In this document: positions 2,181 to 50,085 of the stretch, in pieces
Position numbering within the stretch: position 1 is the stretch's first letter
Layout: each line of letters begins with the position of its first letter
Assembly: GCA_950295325.1 (NCBI GenBank)
Contig: OX485806.1
Coordinates: 9,488,001-9,552,000 of the forward strand
Source: Polytrichum commune
Lineage: Eukaryota > Streptophyta > Polytrichopsida > Polytrichales > Polytrichaceae
DNA: 64,000 nucleotides
Direction: 5' to 3'
The notes under the pieces: generated by a model
What the model saw: only the letters and a program-made list of their open reading frames with translations
Databases searched by the model: none
What the model was told of the DNA's origin: nothing
Position numbers and translations under genes: made by a program

Positions 2181-2569
2181 TCTTCACCTATCGTAGATCT
2201 GAGAGAGCCACCGCCTCTCCTCGATTCATTCACTTGAGCCCTTGGCTTGGCTTGGTTTGCCTTGCATGCGTTGAGTCTTTCTCTCTCCTTTGCGGATTCC
2301 AGCCATGGCTTCCATGGTGAAGCCAGTGCCTAGGGTTCGCTCCCGCAGGGTTATCCGCTCCCGCAGGGTTATCCGCTCGCTGCCGTAGCACCCGAGCTCG
2401 CTCCCCGCTTATCGGAGCCTCATGCAATCGCGCTCATGGTGGCATTTCCCCCCGCAATGGATGAGTTCCACCTGGCTGCCGCAGACGGCACGCGTTCTCG
2501 TGGAGTCTAATCGCTGATTCGTGCAAGGCAGAATCCGCAGGATTGCATGGGGTGATTCTGTAGAGCATT

Positions 2570-3720
2570 CGCAGATTGAAACGCATACTCGGGGGGAGTC
2601 TTGTGTAGTGATGTAGCAGAGGTAGTGATGTCCGCAGGATCACACAGAGAGTAAATAGAGTGATTAAGCAGAGTCTCCGCAGTATTTGGGGAGTCTTGTG
2701 TATTGATTTCTCAAGAGGCATCCGCTGTAATAATGGACGTATACTCGGGGATCCTTGTGTGTTGATTTGTCAGAGGTGTGCGCAGTGTTGGACATACAAT
2801 TGGGGATGTCGTGTGAAATGATGCAGCAGAGGTATCCGCGGGAATATACAGAGAGCAATTAGATTTATTAGCAGAGAGTCCGCAGTATTGGACTTATACT
2901 CGGGTAGTCTTGTGTAGTGAGTTGTCCAAGGTATCCGCAGTATTGAACGTACAATCGTGGAGTCTTTTTTAGTGATGTAGCAGAGGTATCTACAGGATTG
3001 CACTGAGAGTAATTAGAGCGATTTAACAGAGCATCTGCAATATTGGACGCATTTCAGGGAGTCCTGATAGTGATTTGTCATAGGTATCGGCAATATTGGA
3101 CGTATATTCGGGGAGTCTTGTGTAGTGATGTAGCAGACATATCCGCAGGATTGCACAGAGAGCAATTGGAGGGATTGAGCAGAGTGTCCGCAGTATTGGA
3201 CGAATACTCGGGGAGTCTTGTGTAATGATGTAGCCGAGGTTTCCGCAGGAATATACAGAGAGTAATTAGAGTAATTTAGCAGGAGCATCCGCAGTATTGG
3301 ACGCATACTCGGGGAGTTTGGTGCTTTGATTTGTCAGAGGTATCCGTAGTATTGGACGTATTTCGGGGAGTGTGTGTAAAGATGTAGCAGAGGTGTCCGC
3401 AGGAGCATACAGAGAGTAATTAGAGTGATTTAGTATAGTATCCTCAGTATTGGACTTATATTTGGGGAGTCTTGTGTAGTGATATAGCGGAGACATCTTG
3501 TGATTTGGCAAGAGTATCGGCAGTGTTGGACGCGCATACTTGGGGAGTCTTGTGTAGTGATTTGAGCAGAGGTACCCGCGGGATTACACAGAGTAATTAA
3601 AATGATTTAGCAAGTGTATCCGCAGCATTGTACGCATACTCGGCGAGTCCTGTGGAGTGATTTAGCAGAGGTACCCGCAGGAGTGCACGCGTGCTCGTGG
3701 AGTCGAGTTAACAATTTGCT
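2570..3720 (+). repeat. Compound tandem array, period about 155 bp
   Basis: The motif GGGGAGTCTTGTGTAGTGAT and its variants occur near 2594, 2690, 2749, 2803, 2901, 2954, 3056, 3111, 3209, 3312, 3364 and 3462. The spacing alternates between about 97 and about 55 bp, giving a higher-order unit of about 155 bp. Each unit also holds TCCGCAGTATTGGACG-type and GCACAGAGAGTAATTAGAG-type blocks. It lies 200 bp upstream of the first in-frame ATG of the coiled-coil gene, so it could be promoter, 5' leader or a leader intron. Identity between units is roughly 75-90 percent by eye. Confidence 0.85.
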
Positions 3721-35640: not shown

Positions 35641-36427
35641 CGCCTACACCCTCCACACATGGTGACCTCAATCCTTCAAGCACATCTTTCAAAGCTTGAG
35701 AGGAATGAAATTCGACCAAGGTTAAGAGGTTGCTCAATGCACTGGGAAATTCTCCCAAACATCACACTTTCTTCAAGCATGTCAAAGGAAAAAATCTTCT
35801 AGAACGTGATTCAAAGATGAACGTAACGGAGAATTGGGTTCCTGCAAGGCAATAAAGTTGTTCAATCCATAGGGAAATTCTTCCACAGTTTCACAATCCA
35901 ACATGTTCAACTTTCCCAAACATTTCCACGTTCCGAATCCTTCCACCACGTGTTTCAAAGCTCGACATTTTGACAATCTTAGTTCCTAGCTCCAAGGCCA
36001 TGAAATTGTTCAATCAACAGGGAAACACTTCCAGAGCCTCACACTTTGACATGTTCAGTTTTTTCAAACAAATCAACGTTCCAAATCCTTCCGGCACGTG
36101 TTTCAAAGCTCGATATGTTGAGAAATCAAGTACCTCCAAGGCTATGAGGTTTTTCGAACCCAACGGAAACACTTACAAAGCCTCACACTCCGACATGTTA
36201 AGCTGCTTCAAACATGTCAACGTTCCAAATCCTTCCGGCACGTGCCTCAATGCTTGACATTCTGAGAAATCTAGTTCCTCCAAGGCTATGAGGTTGCTCA
36301 ATCCAGTAGGGAACACTTCCAAAGCCTCACACTCCGACATGTTAAGCTGCTTCAAACATGTCAACGTTCCAAATCCTTCCGGCACGTGCCTCAATGCTCG
36401 ACATTCTGAGAAATCTAGTTCCTCCAA
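35640..36427 (-). pseudogene. Decayed 3' continuation of the LRR array
   Basis: Downstream of the frameshift at about 36427, the minus strand goes on with LRR units of the same type. One base is missing in the codon run that elsewhere reads CCTCCAAGGCTATGAGG (here CCTCCAAGCTATGAGG). After about two intact 48-residue units, a TAA at 36173-36175 replaces a Glu codon. Further units (GFGTWKCLGKLNM near 35900) carry more substitutions and a TGA in a phrase that normally encodes FPTGL. The tail is therefore eroding. One base of assembly error in so regular an array would join the first two units back to the gene. Confidence 0.8.
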
Positions 36428-39400
36428 GCTATGAGGTTGCTCAATCCAGTAGGGAACACTTCCAAAGCCTCACACTCCGACATGTTAAGCTTCTTCAAAC
36501 ATGTCAACGTTCCAAATCCTTCCGGCACGTGTTTCAAAGCTCGACATTTTTGAAATTCGAGTTCCTCCAAGGCTATGAGGTTGCTCAATCCAGTAGGAAA
36601 CACTTCCAAAGCCTCACACCCCCACATGCTGAGCTTCTTCAAACATGTCAACGTTCCAAATCCTTCCGGCACGTGCCTCAATGCTCGACATTCTGAGAAA
36701 TCTAGTTCCTCCAAGGCTATGAGGTTGCTCAATCCAGTAGGGAACACTTCCAAAGCCTCACACTCCGACATGTTAAGCTTCTTCAAACATGTCAATGTTC
36801 CAAATCCTTCCGGCACGTGTTTCAAAGCTCGACATTTTTCAAATTCGAGTTCCTCCAAGGCTATGAGGTTGCTCAATCCAATAGGAAACACTTCCAAAGC
36901 CTCACACCCCCACATGATGAGCTTCTTCAAACATGTCAACGTTCCAAATCCTTCCGGCACGTGCCTCAATGCTCGACATTGATACATCCAAAGTTCCTCC
37001 AAAGCTATGAGGTTGCTCAATCCAGTAGGGAACACTTCCAAAGCCTCACACTCCGACATGTTAAGCTTCTTCAAACATGTCAACGTTCCAAATCCTTCCG
37101 GCACGTGTTTCAAAGCTTGACATTTTTCAAATTCGAGTTCCTCCAAGGCTATGAGGTTGCTCAATCCAATAGGAAACACTTCCAAAGCCTCACACCCCCA
37201 CATGATGAGCTTCTTCAAACATGTCAACGTTCCAAATCCTTCCGGCACGTGTCTCAATGCTCGACATTGATACATCCAAAGTTCCTCCAAAGCTATGAGG
37301 TTGCTCAATCCAGTAGGGAACACTTCCAAAGCCTCACACTCCGACATGTTAAGCTGCTTCAAACATGTCAACGTTCCAAATCCTTCCGGCACGTGCCTCA
37401 ATGCTCGACATTCTGAGAAATCTAGTTCCTCCAAGGCTATGAGGTTGCTCAATCCAGTAGGGAACACTTCCAAAGCCTCACACTCCGACATGTTAAGCTT
37501 CTTCAAACATGTCAACGTTCCAAATCCTTCCGGCACGTGTTTCAAAGCTCGACATTTTTGAAATTCGAGTTCCTCCAAGGCTATGAGGTTGCTCAATCCA
37601 GTAGGAAACACTTCCAAAGCCTCACACCCCCACATGCTGAGCTTCTTCAAACATGTCAACGTTCCAAATCCTTCCGGCACGTGTTTCAAAGCTCGACATT
37701 GATACATCCAAAGTTCCTCCAAGGCTATGAGGTTGCTCAATCCAGTAGGGAACACTTCCAAAGCCTCACACTCCGACATGTTAAGCTTCTTCAAACATGT
37801 CAACGTTCCAAATCCTTCCGGCACGTGCCTCAATGCTCGACATTCTGAGAAATCTAGTTCCTCCAAGGCTATGAGGTTGCTCAATCCAGTAGGGAACACT
37901 TCCAAAGCCTCACACTCCGACATGTTAAGCTTCTTCAAACATGTCAACGTTCCAAATCCTTCCGGCACGTGCCTCAATGCTCGACATTGATACATCCAAA
38001 GTTCCTCCAAAGCTATGAGGTTGCTCAATCCAGTAGGGAACACTTCCAAAGCCTCACACTCCGACATGTTAAGCTGCTTCAAACATGTCAACGTTCCAAA
38101 TCCTTCCGGCACGTGTTTCAAAGCTCGACATTTTTGAAATTCGAGTTCCTCCAAGGCTATGAGGTTGCTCAATCCAATAGGAAACACTTCCAAAGCCTCA
38201 CACCCCCACATGATGAGCTTCTTCAAACATGTCAACGTTCCAAATCCTTCCGGCACGTGCCTCAATGCTCGACATTGATACATCCAAAGTTCCTCCAAGG
38301 CTATGAGGTTGCTCAATCCAATAGGGAACACTTCCAAAGCCTCACACTCCGACATGTTAAGCTGCTTCAAACATGTCAACGTTCCAAATCCTTCCGGCAC
38401 GTGCCTCAATGCTCGACATTGATACATCCAAAGTTCCTCCAAGGCTATGAGGTTGCTCAATCCAGTAGGGAACACTTCCAAAGCCTCACACTCCGACATG
38501 TTAAGCTGCTTCAAACATGTCAACGTTCCAAATCCTTCCGGCACGTGTTTCAAAGCTTGACATTTTTCAAATTCGAGTTCCTCCAAGGCTATGAGGTTGC
38601 TCAATCCAATAGGAAACACTTCCAAAGCCTCACACCCCCACATGCTGAGCTTCTTCAAACATGTCAACGTTCCAAATCCTTCCGGCACGTGCCTCAATGC
38701 TCGACATTGATACATCCAAAGTTCCTCCAAGGCTATGAGGTTGCTCAATCCAATAGGGAACACTTCCAAAGCCTCACACCCCCACATGATGAGCTTCTTC
38801 AAACATGTCAACGTTCCAAATCCTTCCGGCACGTGCCTCAATGCTCGACATTGATACATCCAAAGTTCCTCCAAAGCTATGAGGTTGCTCAATCCAGTAG
38901 GGAACACTTCCAAAGCCTCACACTCCGACATGTTAAGCTGCTTCAAACATGTCAACGTTCCAAATCCTTCCGGCACGTGCCTCAATGCTCGACATTCTGA
39001 GAAATCTAGTTCCTCCAAGGCTATGAGGTTGCTCAATCCAGTAGGGAACACTTCCAAAGCCTCACACTCCGACATGTTAAGCTTCTTCAAACATGTCAAC
39101 GTTCCAAATCCTTCCGGCACGTGTTTCAAAGCTCGACATTTTTCAAATTCGAGTTCCTCCAAGGCTATGAGGTTGCTCAATCCAGTAGGAAACACTTTCA
39201 AAGCCTCACACTTCTTGATGTGAAGTTTTTTTAAGTGTTTGAATCTTACAAATCCATTTGGTATTTCTCTTAGCGTTTGGCAATTATGGATATTCAAACA
39301 TTCTAAGAATACCATATGGGCAGTTTCAAAGATAAAATGTTGAAAGTTATCACAATTTGTCAGTGATATGCCTTTGAGACAAGGAAACGTGAATGAATGT

Positions 39401-42400
39401 GATGGATTGAAATCCAAAAAATCACAATTATAGATTTGTAATACACACATTTGATGTAGAAAGGTTTGAGCAATGTTCCAAAACTTTTCAGCAAATGCCT
39501 TTTGTTGTTTGGTAGACTTGTCACTTTCAAGTGACAAGTGGATCTTCAACCACCGTAGATGGACGGAATGCTTTAGAATATCAAAAAGAACCTCCACATC
39601 ATCACAATTTTGAACGCTCAATAATCGAAGGTTTGGCATGTCTTTCATCTCAAAATTTTCCTCATATGTGGACTTATGTTCAAGCCTTTCAAATGACATG
39701 CCTTGTACACGTTCTATACACTGCTTGCACAAACAAATGACATGTTATAAATTGATATTTTAATCAATTCATGCTAGTTTGTTTTAAAAAAAAACAATTG
39801 GATTTGACCATGATAACATTGAAAAAAAGACTAGCTACACATTCAAACGACACGTATTGGACAAACATTCCAAATATGTTCAAATACCTTCAATTTCCTT
39901 GATTTATCATCACGTTTTTATTGGCATAGTGAGGTGGGTAGTTAACCTAAATCTACTTGCAAAATATGGTCGGAACAAGATATTAAACTTGATTGAAACC
40001 TACTTCCACACTTGCGTTCATTTTAAACTCTAGTCATGGATACATTCCAATTTTCTCTAGAAAATCAAGAGTTATCTTTTTTACAGTGTATGCATGCTCA
40101 CTTGTGGCATAATTTGATTGTTTTGTAGTGGAAAACAAAGGGCTGTGTTTGGATGAGACTAACCTTTTGCTTACAATGGTCGGTGAATGTTCCCAAACAA
40201 AAATTCATAGGTCGAGTTTCTTTGAATTCTCCCAGGTTTGCGAGCATACGACCCATGGCACACAATTGATCATGAATTTTCAATAATCCATCACCATCCA
40301 CTGTCACGAGTGACTTGTTATTTAAATTCTCCAAGGTTTTTTGGGCAATGTTGGCATCAAGATCGGACATCCGAATTATGTTTTCCCCCCAAAAATAAAA
40401 TCCTGGAAGGTGTGGATCTGGCTTGTTGAAAAAACAAGAGATGTCAATAAACATGTTTTTTTCTCTATCACCTAGCTCATCAAAGCTGATCCTCAGTGTC
40501 TTCCATATTTGTTCATCTGCGCTTCCATCATGTCTAGCCTTCAACAATCTATGCAATGTTCTCTCCCATATTCGTAATCGCCTCTCCCCATGCATGCATT
40601 TGCCCATTACCTCCAAACTCAATGGAAGCCCACCGCAAGCATTCACAATCTTCTCCGCTACATGTTTCAAATAAGGCTCACATGATTGGTCTGTCCCAAA
40701 GGCATGCATGGAAAAGAGTTCCATAGGTTTATCACCCTCAAGGGTTTTCATGTTTACGATGCCGGCCTTGGGTATATATCGTCCAAAAGATTGCCAACCA
40801 CGTGAGCTTGCAATCAACTTACTGCCATCAACATCTTTGAATATGTGATCACCTAATAGTTGATGTAAGTCAATTCGTTCGCTCACGTTGTCTACAACGA
40901 TAAGAATGTTCTTTGTTTCGCAAATATGTTCCATCGATATTCTTGCTTCCATCAATGTTTTCACTTGAGGTACCTCTCGCGTATCTTCCAACTTATGCTT
41001 GAATATAAAAGTACATGTTTCACCCTTGAAGTCACCTACAAAGCATGTCCCATCAAATTGGTGGGAGATATGTACACTTAGAGCATTGGCCAATGTTGAC
41101 TTGCCGATTCCGCCCATGCCGACAATCCCCAAACGACCAATTTTTTGTAGTTGCCTTTCGAATTCAATTATTTGGTCTTTGATGCCAATCAATCTCTTAG
41201 ATCCATTTGTGGTATTATTGACCTACAAAAATTCCAACATCCAATCTTAGCTTTATAACAAATTACATGTCGGATCATGGTATTTTCCAAACTATCCCAA
41301 GATCATTGATCTCGTTACATTGATATATGATTTGCATACTATATGTGACAATGAGCAAAATAATATCAACACCACAATTACCTTATCAAGAATTTGATGT
41401 AATGATGGATCATTGCGTGTATCTTCAGGTGAGCTACCATATTCTCCAATTTTGGGCATAAATCGTAACCATGAGCTAAGGGTCACAAAAACTTGCCACA
41501 ATATGACTATTTGGCAAAAGGCACTATAAATTATTCCCATGAAGTCGGTCCACCATTGCTTGGGATCCATCAAAGAATTGTAGCTCCATGATGGTTCCTT
41601 ATGCTGGAGTATTGCATCCATAGAGATTACATTCTTGAACATTGCGCTCTTCAATAACCTTAATGTATTGCAAATGTCAAGAAATGTGGGCCTCTTTGAT
41701 GGATCCAAAGACCAACAATCGTGTATTAATGACTTCAATTCCTTCGAGCAATTTGTTGGTAGCTCTGGTCTCTTGCCATCATGTATACTCTTCCAGTAAT
41801 CATGGTGTGAAAGCGCACCAAAAGGTTTTTCCCCTGAAAGAATCTCAAAACTCATCATGGCAAAACTAAACACATCGGTTTTAAATGCATTTACTTCCAA
41901 ACTTCGATTTTCAAACGCCTCGGGTGCCATATACCGAAAGGTGCCATAACGAAATTGTCCCGTGGGCACTTGCGGTGATTCCTTTACTTCGATTTTTGAT
42001 ATACCAAAATCAACCAACTTCACATGCACACATTCAAGGCAACCATCTGACTTTGAGACATTCATGGAAGTCACAACAACATTATTGGGCTTCAAATCAC
42101 GATGTGCTACCTTCATATCATGAAGGTAGCACATTCCGCTTGCAATTTGTAACATAATATCCATTTGAACGGTTTCTGTGATTGAATCTTTCTTTTCGAC
42201 CAATAATTTGCACAAGTCGAACTTTCCTCGTTCCATGACCAACTCAAACTTCTCAATTTCTTCATGAAAAAAACCACAACAAAAAAACGTGATAATGTTT
42301 GGATGATTCAATCCCCCCAATATACTTGCTTCTTTCCATAAAGCTCTCTTGTGATCAAGGTCGACAACTTCGATCACCTTTGTCGCACTATCAATGCCTA

Positions 42401-43211
42401 CCCATTTAGTAGGTAGTACAACACATCCCTTTGTGCCTGCTTCACCCAACGGAATACCCAGCCTTCCTGAAGACTTAGAATGTGGGTAATCATAAGGGAA
42501 AACAATGTTATCCAATTCTTCACCTCGAGCCAATTGTAGACTTGACACTCGTCCCAATAGGTATTGTGCAAGTGCACGATCCTCAATTGTGTCGATTGTC
42601 AAATGCTTTGAGAGTCTTTTATGTAGTGAATTTTGGTCCTCTTCAACTTCATCAATGGATGCTGGATAGAATGTGGTACAACTTTGAGTTTGAAGAATAT
42701 TTTGGCTTTGACCTCGATAACGCATTTGAGATATGTCACACATTGTATGGAAACAACATTCCAAGTCCAAGAGAAGCTCTCTAAATGTCTCTTTGTTGTT
42801 TATTTGCAACACTGCACCATGGCACCAATCTTCCTTGCAGCATTCATCAACCACATTTTTTGCTTTGTCAACAATCCGAACTAAATCTTGTTCAACGTCA
42901 CTAAACACATTCCCTCGGGAGCCTTTCTTGATCTTTTGAATTGCTTCCGCACCCTTTCGGAAGTTTGCCACCAAATTGTTGCATTGTTTTTCATTCAATA
43001 GAATCGAACTTGACAATCTCCTCATATCTTCCATGATCTCAAAAGCCTTCTTTACGTTGTTTGACATTTTGGAAGTCTTACAACAAGAAAATTTGTTGTT
43101 TTGATATTTAACTTTCCGTGTGAAGACTTGCGATGATAATGTCAAGGTTTGCAGCACAATACCTATGAATCCAAAAACTTGCGTATTAATGCAATATAAT
43201 TGGCAACCCAT
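36415..43211 (-). CDS. Protein kinase-NB-ARC-LRR immune receptor (PNL-type NLR)
   Basis: Three exons with phase-0 junctions: 43211-41382, 41222-40164 and 39720-36415, giving about 2064 residues. Exon 1: residues 50-200 look helical and may be a HeLo/four-helix-bundle-like region. The kinase follows, with a loose Gly loop (GEAGTKGCV, 256-264), a probable beta-3 Lys278, Glu294, HRD 370-372 in HRDLKPNN, DFG 401-403 and APE 429-431, so it is likely active. A hydrophobic stretch lies at 557-584. Exon 2 is NB-ARC: P-loop GMGGIGKST, Walker B ILIVVDN, RNBS-B-like KLIASSRG, GLPL in GGLPLSLEV, and LKIHDQL in the MHD position. Exon 3 is LRR, ending in an array of 19 dimers of 48 residues. This architecture is known from mosses, where it acts as an intracellular pathogen sensor class. 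Met49 (43067) is an alternative start that would drop a hydrophobic N-terminus. The reading frame ends at a frameshift (36427), so the C-terminus may be truncated. Confidence 0.88.
36430..39220 (-). repeat. 144-bp coding minisatellite: LRR dimers
   Basis: About 19 tandem units of 144 bp encode pairs of 24-residue LRRs: GLSNLIALEEL, a variable core, then PEGFGTLTCLK, a second core and CEALEVFP. The first core is one of EFEKC/EFQKC, DFSEC or WMYQC; the second is LNMSEC, LIMWGC or LSMWGC. These variants are reshuffled along the array while the framework stays nearly identical even at silent sites. The period is a multiple of three and contains few stops in any frame, so long plus-strand ORFs run opposite to it. 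Confidence 0.95.
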
Positions 43212-44905: not shown

Positions 44906-45992
44906 TATTTCACTCACGAAATCAAGAAACATGCACTGCCAATAACCATGATGAAATCAGGGGGAGTGGAGGTCCGATTTTCGTTCCGAGTTTTTGCTGA
45001 TGCTTCGTCGTAGCTGTGCTCATGCAACACAAGTTGCGTTGTGTAACTCTAAACGGCAGAAGCTGGAGAACACGAAAATAGGGAACATACTGCATACCTT
45101 AGGAGGCGTGAAGAGGTGGCAGCAGCAGGAACAACAGATCCTCCACCAGACAATGAGAGGCAGCAAGCAGCAGCGGACTCAGGAGAGCTGTGGCTATGGA
45201 AGAAAGGAGGAGGAGGAAGAAGAAGAAGAAGAAGGGAGGGTGGGTTTCCTCCGCACCATCGTGGCTCGCCAAGTCCCTGTTCCCAATGCCCAGAACCTGG
45301 AGAGTGGAGGCACCGATATTTTGGGTTTCTTCCCTGATGGTAGCTTAGTTTGAACGCTGGCACACATGTCTCGCTTGACCTCATCTTGAGGAAAAAAGGC
45401 ACTTTCTAAGGACACGTGTCTCCAAGTCCCGTGAGGTTCATCCGTGAAATCTCAACTGTTGATAGCGTGGAAGTTGGGACTTACCACTTCACACGGTGTC
45501 CCAAGTCCTATGTCCCGAGTTTGACCCTACTCTCAATCCAAGTAGGGTCTAGTTTTCTTGGAGGTGATGAGGCTTGGGAGATGTGTTTGAGTGTTGGGTC
45601 GATCAAAAAGCTAGACCCTACTCTCAATCCAAGTCTTGCAAATGTTTTTGTTTTAAATAATCATGATCCAACTCTAATGATAATTAACTGTATTTTAATG
45701 GTTTCTTGGATCTCAAAAGTTGGGACTTGGTCTCCATGTTGGGACTTTCTAACATGAGTGGGACTTGGGAACCCATGTGAACCGGCTCTTAATGTAATGA
45801 GGGAGGGGAGGTTTTGGAGCCCAACTCCCCCAAGAAAATCTAGAAGCACTTACATTGGAGAGGCAAGTACCGGAAGTAAGGACACAATATCTCTACTTAT
45901 GACAAGCATAATTTAAGGGAGGAAATTATTCTTTCTTATTCCTTTGCTACGATTGGTTGCTAGGGTGTCGGACTCAAGACACGCACATGGTG
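44906..45992. other. Intergenic, possible further MITE
   Basis: ORFs at 45000-45400 in several frames overlap a purine-rich stretch (45200-45240) and are not convincing. Between about 45405 and 45800, CCAAGTCCC near the left and GGGACTTGGG near the right suggest another inverted-repeat element of about 390 bp, with an end TGTGAACCGGCTCTTA that resembles the Tourist-like family. The boundaries are unclear. Confidence 0.4.
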
Positions 45993-46145
45993 CATAACAT
46001 TACTTAGCGTCCAAGTCACGTTCCGTGGGCCCTCAAATATAACATTGAGATGCTCAAAAAGATGTGCATGGAGACTCGTAAAAGATTTAACTCCCAACAT
46101 CTCATTGTTATATTTTGAGGGCCCACGTCACTTAGTAATGTTATG
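45993..46145. mobile_element. CATAACATTA-family MITE, copy 1
   Basis: The left arm has CATAACATTACTTAG and later GTGGGCCCTCAAATATAAC. The right arm has the complements GTTATATTTTGAGGGCCCAC and TAGTAATGTTATG. Each arm is about 50 bp, so nearly the whole 153-bp element can fold into a hairpin. Related copies are at 55647 and 58254. Confidence 0.8.
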
Positions 46146-46664
46146 TGAGGGTATTTAAAGTACTAACTCGCTAGGTGTCACATCCTCGAAGACATATGAT
46201 GAATGTTTAAAAATAAACTTAGAGGTGGATTATCATATAGTTATAAACAACAATGGCAAATCATTACTCTCTATGAATGGGTCTACTTGAAATCTAATAT
46301 GAGGTGTCATTAGGTCCATCATAGATCAACCTAGCATAACACTTTGAAAACTCATAACTAATTCATATTATGTCTCAAAATATATTAAATTAAATCGGAG
46401 ACTCAATTCCGTCTTTTTGATTTACGGTAAATGTTTCTTGAAGAAACATAAAATTCTCTAAATGCTAAAATTGCTCAAGATGTACACTAAATATTTTATT
46501 AATGGTCATATGGTATTTTATGTCACTATGGTAACTTCCTGATGACATTTTCTATGAACAAGTCTACAAGTATTGTCATGGAATAGTGAAATGTCAATTC
46601 AAAATTTATGTCAATTCTTGAAACAAAGTTTGGTATTTTTGCATCCTCATAATTATGTAATGGA

Positions 46665-47395
46665 ATCCCGGGGTGTGCACTCTTCATTGGAAACCTAAAT
46701 GACATGTATGGGTCACTATGAAATTAAACTTCCCACATACGACAAGTTTAGAGAGACAACAAAATGTATACATACGAACGGTATGCTAGAAAACATACTC
46801 ATGTACTTATTCTAAGCTTTTCAATTTAACGTGATAAATGCATTCCCTACATATACAAAACAAACTTCATGAATTAAATAGACCTTTATTACTTACACAA
46901 CCCACTTTCACTCTCCAATCAGAAAGTCATTAACCATTTTTTCCTCCATAGCATTTAACTCAATAATTGCATCAAACAAACAAAGGCAAGAGCATAATAA
47001 CTTAGCCACAATTCAAGAGGAGAACTCAAGAGAGCACATGAGCGATCCAAGAGCCTTTAGTTTGTAAAACCTAGAATCCAAATGCAAACCTTAACAAGAA
47101 TTGACAAGGTAGTCATTGAGGACATTACCTTATGATAATAACATATGAAAACATGAATTGGATGAAACTGACACATCTATTGTCAAATCTTGCTCTAACC
47201 CTTAGAGCCTGCTTTTGCACAATCACCTTTACTTCAAAATTCTTGATAGCCTCCCTAAATGTACACACTAAAGAAAAACAATACATCTCCTTTACATATA
47301 CTATGTTCATTAATACCTTTAATAAAAACCCCTTCTTACACTCACATTAGTTCATACATTGTATGAACAGTCCAACTCCCTCCATGGGAATGAGA
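46665..47395 (+). repeat. 700-bp dispersed repeat, copy 1
   Basis: Colinear similarity to 56655-57370 across the whole length, about 70 percent by eye. Shared blocks include CATTGGAAACCTAAATGAC, CAAACAAACAAAG, AACACATCTATTGTCAA-type text and CACTCACATTAGTTC-type text near the end. Both copies have the same orientation, about 10 kb apart. It could be an LTR pair, but no gag or pol frame is visible between them. Confidence 0.7.
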
Positions 47396-47729
47396 TATTG
47401 TCATGGATGATTATGTTTTGGATGAAAATCACTTACTAAGTGGCAATGATTGTAAATCAATGATGCCCTAAATTTTATATGAGAAGTGACAAATAATATT
47501 AGGTTTCCTTTCACTGTTGGTGACACTACATGGGTGATTTACGATTTATATTGAGCAAGACAAATAAAATAGGTGACACTAAATACAATGTTTAGGGTAG
47601 TTTTGTGTAGTTTTGTGTAGTACATCAACATACCTTACTATGCTTAATAACATATTGTCGCACATCTTTGTGAGTGAAGGTGCGTATTGGATTTGATCTG
47701 CTCAATTTGCAAACAGGGAGAGCCGTCCA

Positions 47730-48049
47730 CTACACTTAAATAGGATATTTAGTGTTTGATTATAGTGTTGTTACCACCTTACCCTTCTCAACATTGATTT
47801 TCAATTCCTTGCTAATTACTGTTAAACAGAAATGTGCCGCTACCTTCCCTATCGCCACCTCCCTTATTACATCATTTTTTATAATCCCCACTAACACTAA
47901 ATTCAAACATGTAACTTCCACATAATACCATAGTTGATATTTAGTGTTTGAATTTACATTTAATGTTACGTACTTTCATAGGGTCATTGATATTTAGTGT
48001 ATGCGTTCATATTTAGTGTATCAAACACTAAATATCCTATTTGGTGTAG
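47730..48049. mobile_element. CTACAC-family MITE, copy 1
   Basis: The left end CTACACTTAAATAGGATATT and the right end AATATCCTATTTGGTGTAG form arms of about 30 bp. The element is about 320 bp. The same end sequence, with GATATTTAGTGT, is found at 51607-51832. The target duplication is not evident. Confidence 0.75.
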
Positions 48050-49839
48050 CAACAAATGGGCCTGTTGAGTTTGAGAGATAACAGGCTTAAGTTCAAGACT
48101 TTAGGCAAATCATTTATCATTTTAGGGCTCCATAGAATATATCTTTCTTAAAAGAGATGAACATAAAAAGCCAAGATTTTTGACGAAGATAGGACGTGCA
48201 CATAAAAAGCGGACTCTTTATGTGTATTGATATGTGGATCATCATAGGCACCTACTTTGGTTGCAATATACAAATGACGTGCGCAAGTGACTATAGAATA
48301 GAAAACCCTTATATTTGAGAAATACATAGAATCAAATAAATGTGCATGTACCAATGTGAGGCTAGAAAATGGAGTGATATGTTTATTTTAATTTTTCAAT
48401 TTAATGTCATGACTGCATCCACTACAAATGAAAAATTTTAACCATAAAATATATGGAATGTACGACACCAATCCAACATTGAATAGGACCCCTTTGGAGG
48501 AAATTGAAATAGATACATCAGTGAACTGATATAGTAACTTTGAAATGACTATATATAGTCATGATAAATCCCCTTATAAGGGGGGAATACAATTGTAAAA
48601 ACTTAGAAAGTGCATAAGTTTGCGCATATCAACTTCTTTAATGGGTTCATTGTCAGCTGCATCACCGCCTCCATCAAGCATACCTATCGGATTTCCTCCT
48701 CAGTAGTGTGTAAAGTTTCATGAGATCAAAGACCAATTCATTATTGATGAACTCGTGTGCGTTCATAATGGGCCCACTTTCACTCTCTTAGATACCAATC
48801 CTAGTTGTTCCAATAAGGTAGTAATTTCTTGCAACTCTTTCTTATGTACTGCTTCTTGAGCTTCTATATTTGTCATGAATGCGTCATCCGTTTCCTTATT
48901 GTCATAATACCTCAAAAGAATAGTTCACTATATTCGTTAATAGGAGATATTTCCATGATTTGGAGACTAATCAAGGACTTCAAGTATGATATTGTGTTTA
49001 GTGCATATTTTGATTATGATATAGATAATATTTAGATATATATATATACTTCTCATGAACGAATATGTAAAAAGTTCATTACCAACGTTCCCCACGTTCA
49101 CAATAATGCACCCCAAACAATGGGTAAATTTAATGATATAGTGATATACATGCGTTTTCCCAACAATTCATGATTGTTGATGTAGTAACTTAGAGCAATT
49201 TCTCAACCTACTATACATTGACAAGTGATTGTGTGCACGATTTATGCATGTTACAGTAATTTCATTCAAGTTATAGAAATTTATAGCCTCACTTTCATCC
49301 AAGTGAACACTTATTGAGTTGAACTCATTGAAAAGGGGAGCGTAATTTTTTGAATTTTTCCTAACGGTTAACAATCAACACTTCTAGTATATTGTTTGGA
49401 GACTTTTTAGGAAGCATAATTTTCCTCAACACAAATGCGATTTCACCACTTATGATGGATGGACTGGACATTAGTGAAAGAGATCCAATGTTAAAGAGCA
49501 TGCAATCCTTGGAAGTGTTGCAAGCTTGTCTTCATGTGCATACAATTTGCCATTCGGAGCACTTGTCATGTCCACAAGGTCAAAAATTGCTTGACCTGGC
49601 TGGTGTGTTGGTATAACGTACATGTTCATAAACGGTTTTTTTTATTCCCACTAAACTGCTTATGGTAGTTAGTGTCATGTACACTATTTGTGAAGGACCT
49701 ACACTAGATGCCCAGAGGTCTCAAAGTGTCACGCCCGCTAATTACTGATATGATTTCATTTGTCAACATAAGTTACTTCTTCAAGTGAGAAGATACCTTC
49801 ACTATAATGACATTAGAATAGGTCATTGGGATACTTTCG
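48050..49839. other. AT-rich intergenic DNA
   Basis: Only short ORFs. A segment near 48370-48430 weakly resembles part of the 700-bp repeat. A TATA-rich tract lies at 49036-49050. No gene is supported. Confidence 0.4.
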
Positions 49840-50085
49840 ATGATAGGCTTGCGTTTTAATATCCAAGGGTAAGATATTTAAGCTCACTAATGGCAAGTGT
49901 CATGTGTTTGCATTTTAATATTTAAGAGGAATATATCCTTAAGCATACTAATGGCAAGTGTCATGTGTTTGCATTTTAATATTTAAGAGGAATATATTCT
50001 TAAGCATACTAATGGCAAGTGTCATGTGTTTCATTTTAATATTTAAGAGGAATATATTCTTAAGCATACTAATGGCAAGTGACAT
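49840..50085 (+). repeat. 61-bp tandem repeat, about four copies
   Basis: GGCAAGTGTCATGTG recurs at 49892, 49953 and 50014, with a degenerate last copy at 50074, spaced 61, 61 and 60 bp apart. Each unit also has TTTTAATATTTAAGAGGAAT. The second and third units are nearly identical, so the expansion is recent. Confidence 0.9.

Follow-up and report, generated by a model that had tools for sequence, protein, structure and literature searches.

A putative PNL-class immune receptor gene in the moss Polytrichum commune, with a probably recombinogenic array of near-identical LRR dimers

The window analysed here is a stretch of 64,000 nucleotides of the Polytrichum commune genome (G000:C4:9488001-9552000; 408 Mb were searched). 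Its minus strand carries a gene whose kinase, NB-ARC/winged-helix and LRR exons form a single open spliced frame with no internal stop, the LRR exon as a whole running from 39720 to 36415. Along the gene, the parts are the following.

41382..43067, minus strand: exon 1, N-terminal protein kinase domain (Pfam PF00069, E 1e-43; HRD, DFG and APE motifs)
41223..41381, minus strand: intron 1, GT-AG, phase 0 (splice sites predicted from the sequence)
40164..41222, minus strand: exon 2, NB-ARC and winged-helix (Roq1-like) domains (PF00931, E 6.7e-23; PF23282, E 1.1e-7)
39721..40163, minus strand: intron 2, GT-AG, phase 0 (predicted splice sites)
39193..39720, minus strand: exon 3, diverged leading part of the LRR domain (1.5% divergence from the paralogous locus L005)
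36457..39192, minus strand: 19 LRR dimers of 144 bp in tandem, all in frame, whose codons 15-18 and 39-42 form the variable cores
36415..36456, minus strand: beginning of unit 20, in which 1 bp present in the other units is missing (the frame ends in NLIAWRN and a stop)
35838..36414, minus strand: degenerate LRR units past the frame (3' relic tail), including a stop common to L005

Exon 1 ends in a GT donor in phase 0 and would start at the methionine at 43067, within a frame that is open from 43262. Exon 2, whose best PDB sequence match is Roq1 (E 3.3e-30), contains motifs which we take to be the P-loop, RNBS-B, GLPL and IHD. Pfam matches of the gene comprise Pkinase, NB-ARC, WHD_ROQ1 and LRR families (LRR_14 at E 5.8e-77, and others). 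The 1-bp deletion in unit 20 closes the frame about 81 codons ahead of the stop common to L005, and the relic tail that follows shows 5.1% divergence to L005 and 10.1% to a further paralogous locus, L006. Long open frames face the array on the plus strand (36706-37416 and 37858-39000); these are an effect of the repeat and do not indicate genes. Elsewhere in the window, tandem repeats of roughly 100-, 153- and 254-bp period overlap one another in a GC-richer stretch at 2332-3682, a 61-bp tandem repeat (3.9 copies, 92% match) lies at 49849-50085, and Rfam at the gathering threshold gave no match anywhere.

Judged from its domains and intron phases, the window gene is a PNL-class (protein kinase-NBS-LRR) NLR of mosses. 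Published accounts of this class in Physcomitrella, in the excerpts available, give the order kinase, NB-ARC, LRR with an NBS nearer to that of TNLs (PMC3352924, PMC3991678) and place phase-0 introns at the kinase/NBS and NBS/LRR borders (PMC3352924). The Polytrichum gene has the same order, with its N-terminal kinase domain, a central NB-ARC domain whose closeness to TNLs is suggested by PF00931, WHD_ROQ1 and the Roq1 match, and a C-terminal LRR domain; both introns, as predicted, lie between the domains in phase 0. The difference is in the LRRs, as the excerpted Physcomitrella descriptions mention neither arrays of near-identical LRRs nor cores that vary nor any turnover of arrays (PMC3352924, PMC3991678). 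A kinase domain from a P. patens NLR gave a modest yet variable response in Nicotiana, according to the excerpted part of that study (PMC11218826).

An earlier note on this DNA had described nineteen 144-bp units with an almost invariant framework and about three variants per LRR, and this description held. Exactly 19 full in-frame units lie on the minus strand from 39192 down to 36457, each consisting of two 24-aa LRRs, and nucleotide identity is 96.1% off the core codons versus 72.7% inside them. Tandem Repeats Finder delimits a repeat at 35838-39212 (period 144, 23.4 copies, score 5031), so degenerate units run beyond the end given in that note. Pairwise identity among the 19 units averages 92.2% at the nucleotide level (minimum 85.4%) and 88.0% at the amino acid level; 23 of the 144 sites vary, and 16 units are distinct as DNA and 15 as protein. 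The first LRR bears the core WMYQ in 8 units, EFEK/EFQK in 7 and DFSE in 4, the second NMSE in 12, IMWG in 4 and SMWG in 3. The variation falls within the LxxLxLxxC strand motif, at x3, x4 and x5 and at the residue separating x3 from x4; as the LRR parser needs anchor residues, invariance at those is partly by construction, and LRRs that it does not recognise leave gaps. An AlphaFold model run without an alignment, and poor (mean pLDDT 59.8), predicts a strand about every 24 residues, that of the first unit spanning x2-x4 (residues 197-201); among the 50 PDB fold matches listed the query TM-scores are about 0.2-0.4.

The order of the cores within the window array is not that of freely shuffled cassettes. 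Core A and core B of one unit are associated (p=0.006), as are core B and the following core A (p=0.0008), and an EF- core comes after IMWG/SMWG in 6 of 7 cases and after NMSE in 0 of 11; free reordering was rejected on these associations. Block repeats of several units did not rise above shuffled arrays (34/200), and no common higher-order period was found (mean relative core distance 0.93-1.04 at lags 1-10). Linkage is tight within a core and drops within 12-30 bp, the mean r2 within units being 0.58 below 12 bp, 0.21 at 12-30 and 0.14 at 30-60; its return to 0.31 at 60-90 bp, and hence the lack of a steady fall, speaks against the explanation preferred below. Site pairs with all four gametes number, by rising distance, 1/23, 12/28, 20/31, 22/28 and 7/10. 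An edge effect was also considered and rejected: the array ends deviate by -1.4% (5') and -1.8% (3'), but sign tests (16/26 and 18/26) show no significant excess divergence of the terminal units, which again counts against that explanation.

Searching the genome with the array gave at least 97 matches, merged by eye into at least 34 loci (best 42 of 1429 candidates scored). Besides the window gene, 29 paralogues were parsed for LRRs. Thirteen of them, L005-L017, rank directly behind the window as NB-ARC matches; the other 16, L018-L033, were chosen by array match, and in these the presence of an array is by construction. The whole parsed set covers 28 of the 34 array loci (window included) together with L012 and L015. 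LRR arrays occur in 30/30 parsed genes, with 7 to 81 LRRs parsed and a mean half-unit nucleotide identity of 0.72-0.95, and 13/13 of the nearest NB-ARC paralogues carry them; upstream matches to the kinase exon were obtained for 21 of the 29 paralogues (best 67 candidates scored). Most successive LRRs hold a 72-bp step. Many paralogue arrays are part of long open frames, which exceed 1,200 aa and reach 2,316, and several, L006 included, are broken by stops, frameshifts or insertions.

Some loci have peculiarities of their own. A frame-shifted LRR with an FFFK core is present twice in L006, as though the frameshift had been copied with a block; a spacing of 70 bp between two successive LRRs of L014 reflects a 2-bp indel, which causes a frameshift inside the array; about 1.07 kb inside the L016 array has no parsed LRRs; and the LRRs of L015 end after about 15, with an unrelated 486-aa open frame farther downstream, the last two cases possibly reflecting insertions. 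The 5' flank of the window gene (45300-49800) recurs at the L005 (97%) and L006 (96%) loci, and one part of it (query about 1370-2080) recurs at 78-80% in many other places among the best candidates; the receptor loci therefore seem to have spread with large flanks.

Units resemble those of their own gene. By framework, the nearest unit belongs to the same gene in 71% of cases in the close clade and 75% in the distant set, versus 9% and 6% with labels shuffled (the 20th window dimer in this and in the selection calculations comes from the relic tail). Unit distances between genes are 3.6 times those within genes in the distant set, 1.3 times in the close clade and about 1.2 times among the nearest genes; the last value implies that most unit diversity predates the duplications, and it counts against the explanation preferred below.

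Among young duplicates, L005 and L006, on two contigs, offer the cleanest comparison. They differ by about 2% on the 5' side, 0.4% in the NB-ARC region and 2.0% over 1430 bp of 3' flank, and their arrays contain 47 and 56 LRRs. The longest collinear chain is 16 versus a shuffled mean of 13.8, with 8/100 shuffles as good, that is, weak collinearity at best; since the L006 array is frame-broken, its turnover may be free of selection. Outside the array and relic, the window gene and L005 are 1.0-1.9% diverged, and the unit order of the window gene matched that of L005 no better than shuffled order by two methods (12/100 and 90/100); no collinearity with either L005 or L006 was detectable. Thus loci with flanks only about 2% diverged have arrays that are not detectably collinear, in agreement with the part of the earlier reading that proposed exchange altering the order and number of units. 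Among 19 tested pairs with less than 2% NB-ARC divergence, L019-L021 and L026-L030 were collinear (0/100) and the other 17 gave 8-100/100; these pairs share genes, and power varies and is small where few units match. The main differences within the still-collinear pair L019-L021 are blocks of 26 and 10 LRRs, besides two unmatched terminal LRRs and one single-LRR gap, which falls where L021 has a 145-bp step. Block repeats beyond shuffles (5/200 or fewer) were found in 12 of the 28 arrays tested, L012 and L015 being too short, and the longest span 16 LRRs in L020 and 13 in L018. Exchange in these arrays is therefore well supported at the sequence level. Other observations count against the preferred explanation: the homology of the window with L005 ends at the 3' relic, and divergence is higher in the 3' tails adjoining the array than in the flanks (5.1% for window-L005, 6.0% directly after the array for L005-L006). 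Furthermore, the neighbours L012 (G000:C2:69540500-69546915) and L013 (69564300-69571190), about 24 kb apart and with 8 and 47 LRRs, are identical over 1130 bp of the NB-ARC exon and 5-6% diverged at the LRR start and 3' flank. Recent conversion of this exon is likely, and heads can accordingly appear younger than the arrays behind them.

Synonymous and nonsynonymous counts between units, which the earlier note had proposed as a check, gave a pN(x3,x4,x5)/pS(framework) of 3.21 (2.52-4.43) in the window gene. This ratio, whose numerator and denominator come from different codons, is above 1 in 29/29 genes (L012, with 3 dimers, was dropped from the 30), and its lower bound is above 1 in 25/29, from bootstraps that treat non-independent units as independent. 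Framework pN/pS has a median of 0.30 over the 29 genes, the framework pS of the window gene being 0.10. Core-internal pN/pS is 0.97 in the window gene and 0.35-2.52 over the 29, values that weigh against the explanation preferred below. Hypermutation of the cores was rejected, as synonymous differences are not generally higher in core codons (mean 0.12, close clade); codon 16 reaches 0.32 and the leucine codons directly preceding the cores 0.38 and 0.35 in the same clade.

The cores themselves are partly shared and partly private. The commonest DNA forms of WMYQ, NMSE, IMWG and SMWG are identical across the window gene, L005 and L006, and one further class is gene-specific, namely EFEK/EFQK in the window gene, HFSK in L005 and IFSK in L006. 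EFEK/EFQK is found in 7 LRRs of the window gene and in 0/29 parsed paralogues, and at least 3 of 12 nucleotides separate it from every core of the 13 close paralogues. This suggests that new cores were made by substitution in the window gene, or retained solely there, and now occupy 7/19 units. The claim of the earlier note that diversity arises by reordering "not by point mutation" is therefore not supported, and it is also opposed by the excess of exposed replacement diversity over framework pS in 29/29 genes; of that reading, exchange affecting order and number stands, and free reordering is unsupported here. A derivation of the EF cores from HFSK by way of the framework was tried and rejected: the window EF LRRs are nearest to L005 HFSK, and the reverse trace is unspecific, most L005 LRRs of all core types being nearest to window EF LRRs. 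Some cores travel with a linked leucine codon common to several genes (NMSE-CTT in 31/32 units, NFSE-CTC in 20/20); others have no single leucine codon (SMWG 17 CTC, 15 CTT), against the preferred explanation.

Similar arrays were present in 9/9 further NLRs sampled versus 0/6 LRR-receptor-kinase-type genes. Five of these NLRs, L038-L042, had been meant as a negative control, which failed since 5/5 carry arrays, and L043-L048 (LRRNT_2 matches) took over; L038-L048 were all picked with long open frames in view. L038-L041 have NB-ARC and a WH_DRP winged helix in 4/4, an RPW8 or Rx_N N-terminal match over the curated cut-off in 3/4, and 72-bp arrays of 11-34 copies at 80-90% match. A single open frame of L042 (G000:C4:11943500-11953499), 2701 aa long within the stretch fetched, encodes kinase, NB-ARC, WHD_ROQ1 and LRRs; its 72-bp LRR is repeated about 77 times (95% match), and the final dozen or so units show a three-unit rhythm, DLSG NLCG NLSG. 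The diversity of L038-L042 takes in the same strand positions as that of the window array. L049-L052, hand-picked without sight of arrays at ranks 15, 18, 36 and 52 of the NB-ARC list, have arrays in 4/4 (23-41 copies, 85-90%), two of which extend past the fetched stretch. Tandem arrays of period 48 or more were found in 0/6 of L043-L048, and inter-LRR nucleotide identity is 0.44-0.48 in the 4 parsable LRR-kinase-type genes versus 0.65-0.79 in six PNL-type arrays treated with the same parser, both half-units mixed. The array feature thus tracks NLRs rather than LRRs generally in these small samples.

It is probable, from these sequence data, that the window gene is a PNL-class immune receptor whose single-exon LRR domain consists of a recombinogenic 144-bp array shaped by mutation, exchange and selection. 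This is based on the uniform framework, the exposed-strand variation with its excess of replacements, the likeness of units within a gene, the differing order and number of units in duplicates, and even-numbered LRR gains or losses in a still-collinear pair. Replacement mutation at x3/x4/x5 would create new cores, and the near-identical framework would permit mispairing, so that unequal crossing-over and short-tract conversion, the presumed agents, could copy, delete and move units. Such exchange would spread some of the new cores, as with EFEK/EFQK, and hold the framework uniform, while selection would favour varied concave-face cores contacting microbial or other non-self ligands. The gene would then function in recognition, and arrays would turn over between individuals; the same mode appears to operate in every NLR sampled of the genome. 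Two points, the broken frame of L006 and the choice of 16 of the 29 paralogues by array match, slightly lower the weight of this explanation and raise that of gene decay.

The likeness of the units could also result from purifying selection on the LRR scaffold combined with relaxed exposed positions, a similarity driven by the fold without recent exchange. The low framework pN/pS indeed indicates a constrained scaffold, but framework synonymous sites are alike within arrays too, units resemble those of their own gene, young duplicates differ in order and number, and LRR-kinase-type genes fall well below PNL-type arrays in inter-LRR identity; moreover, relaxation alone fails to raise exposed-site pN above framework pS. 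This account is very unlikely. Non-adaptive minisatellite turnover by unequal exchange in a decaying gene, with the window copy as a pseudogene, would agree with the frameshift in unit 20, the relic tail and the broken paralogue arrays, L006 among them. Yet the window kinase, NB-ARC and 19 units lie in one open spliced frame with key motifs, the frameshift costs merely some 81 codons, many paralogue arrays occupy long open frames, and exposed positions show a replacement excess throughout the 29 genes, which makes decay quite improbable.

Two further alternatives concern the arrays as assembled and as transferred. A near-identical 144-bp array is an assembly hazard, and repeats may be collapsed, expanded or chimeric; however, the 30 parsed arrays are unlike in framework, cores and length, the seven chromosome-sized contigs suggest long reads, the 72-bp step is kept by most successive LRRs, and L019-L021 and L026-L030 are collinear beyond shuffles, so that an artefact is very unlikely. 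Ectopic recombination might instead set old arrays behind young heads, without reshuffling in place. The identical NB-ARC exons of L012 and L013 beside their diverged LRR start and 3' flank, the end of window-L005 homology at the relic, and the more diverged tails next to the arrays all favour such swapping, which would nevertheless need two breakpoints in L005-L006, where about 2% divergence lies on either side of non-collinear arrays. Furthermore, when L011 and L014 were searched for partners differing by no more than 2 mismatches, 0/44 window LRRs had one, and exchange with those two is not evident. Swapping is on balance unlikely, and the preferred explanation remains reshuffling of units in place together with mutation and selection.

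More tentatively, and with considerable doubt, recombinogenic LRR arrays might be the standard NLR form in this genome, in kinase-type and CC/RPW8-type receptors alike and separately homogenised in each, acting as a combinatorial receptor generator without adaptive immunity. If true, haploid, clonally growing lineages could rebuild receptors by germline, perhaps somatic, recombination. How plants match pathogens without adaptive immunity is an open problem, and the array suggests a way to make new receptors quickly. With likely contact positions, units of exchange and the natural pairs L005/L006 and L019/L021 in one genome, turnover, the shares of mutation and exchange, and selection become measurable. 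The fungal model of WD40 repeat shuffling would also be carried to plant LRR receptors, in at least two NLR architectures of one genome. Among the titles and opening parts of abstracts listed in literature searches, which excluded preprints and most subscription journals, none reported arrays of this kind as a common trait of moss NLRs.

Several known systems resemble the moss array in part. PRDM9 zinc-finger arrays are minisatellite-like coding arrays with diversity at contact residues; the logic of the array is similar, and the protein and its function are unrelated. LRR units are likewise multiplied and exchanged in the Tetrahymena 90-bp-exon LRR genes (PMC6564038) and the brown-algal ROCO genes (PMC11378527), but, according to the excerpts of those reports, as separate exons, unlike the one uninterrupted NLR exon of the moss. 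Among plant NLRs, melon Vat has 1-7 near-perfect 65-aa repeats (R65aa) in its LRR2, and the excerpted account cites flax M as well (PMC8012345). Vat and the moss array are alike in LRR repeats of varying number, a replacement hot spot and proposed unequal crossing-over or conversion; they differ in that Vat, as described there, has 1-7 units in part of one gene cluster, and the moss has long arrays in every sampled NLR.

The closest parallel is found in Podospora, where the HNWD/NWD genes het-d and het-e encode STAND receptors with WD40 repeats that are more than 80% identical within a gene, with diversifying selection at a few surface codons, repeat arrays of polymorphic length and a proposed reshuffling, as given in excerpts of PMC1805685, PMC12222747 and PMC4986451. 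The excerpted definition of high internal conservation (HIC) is a repeat identity above 85% over at least 100 aa (PMC4986451); the window array has 88.0% over 912 aa, and 14/29 genes have a mean over dimers of 85% or more (range 78-91%). Diversifying selection at interaction-surface codons, a further mark of HIC repeats, is seen here relative to framework pS, with a core-internal ratio of 0.97 in the window gene, and repeat number differs between paralogues of one genome. The two systems thus have in common a STAND receptor, high repeat identity within a gene, a few diversified surface codons and a proposed reshuffling. The fungal family is defined by NACHT with WD40, and its excerpted record includes exchange between loci and population data, whereas the moss has LRRs on an NB-ARC protein, compared among paralogues of one genome, and arrays of up to about 77 units (L042), unlike those described for HNWD/NWD. 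By analogy, the moss array is the plant LRR counterpart of the fungal HNWD repeats, one that would work alike without being a member of their family.
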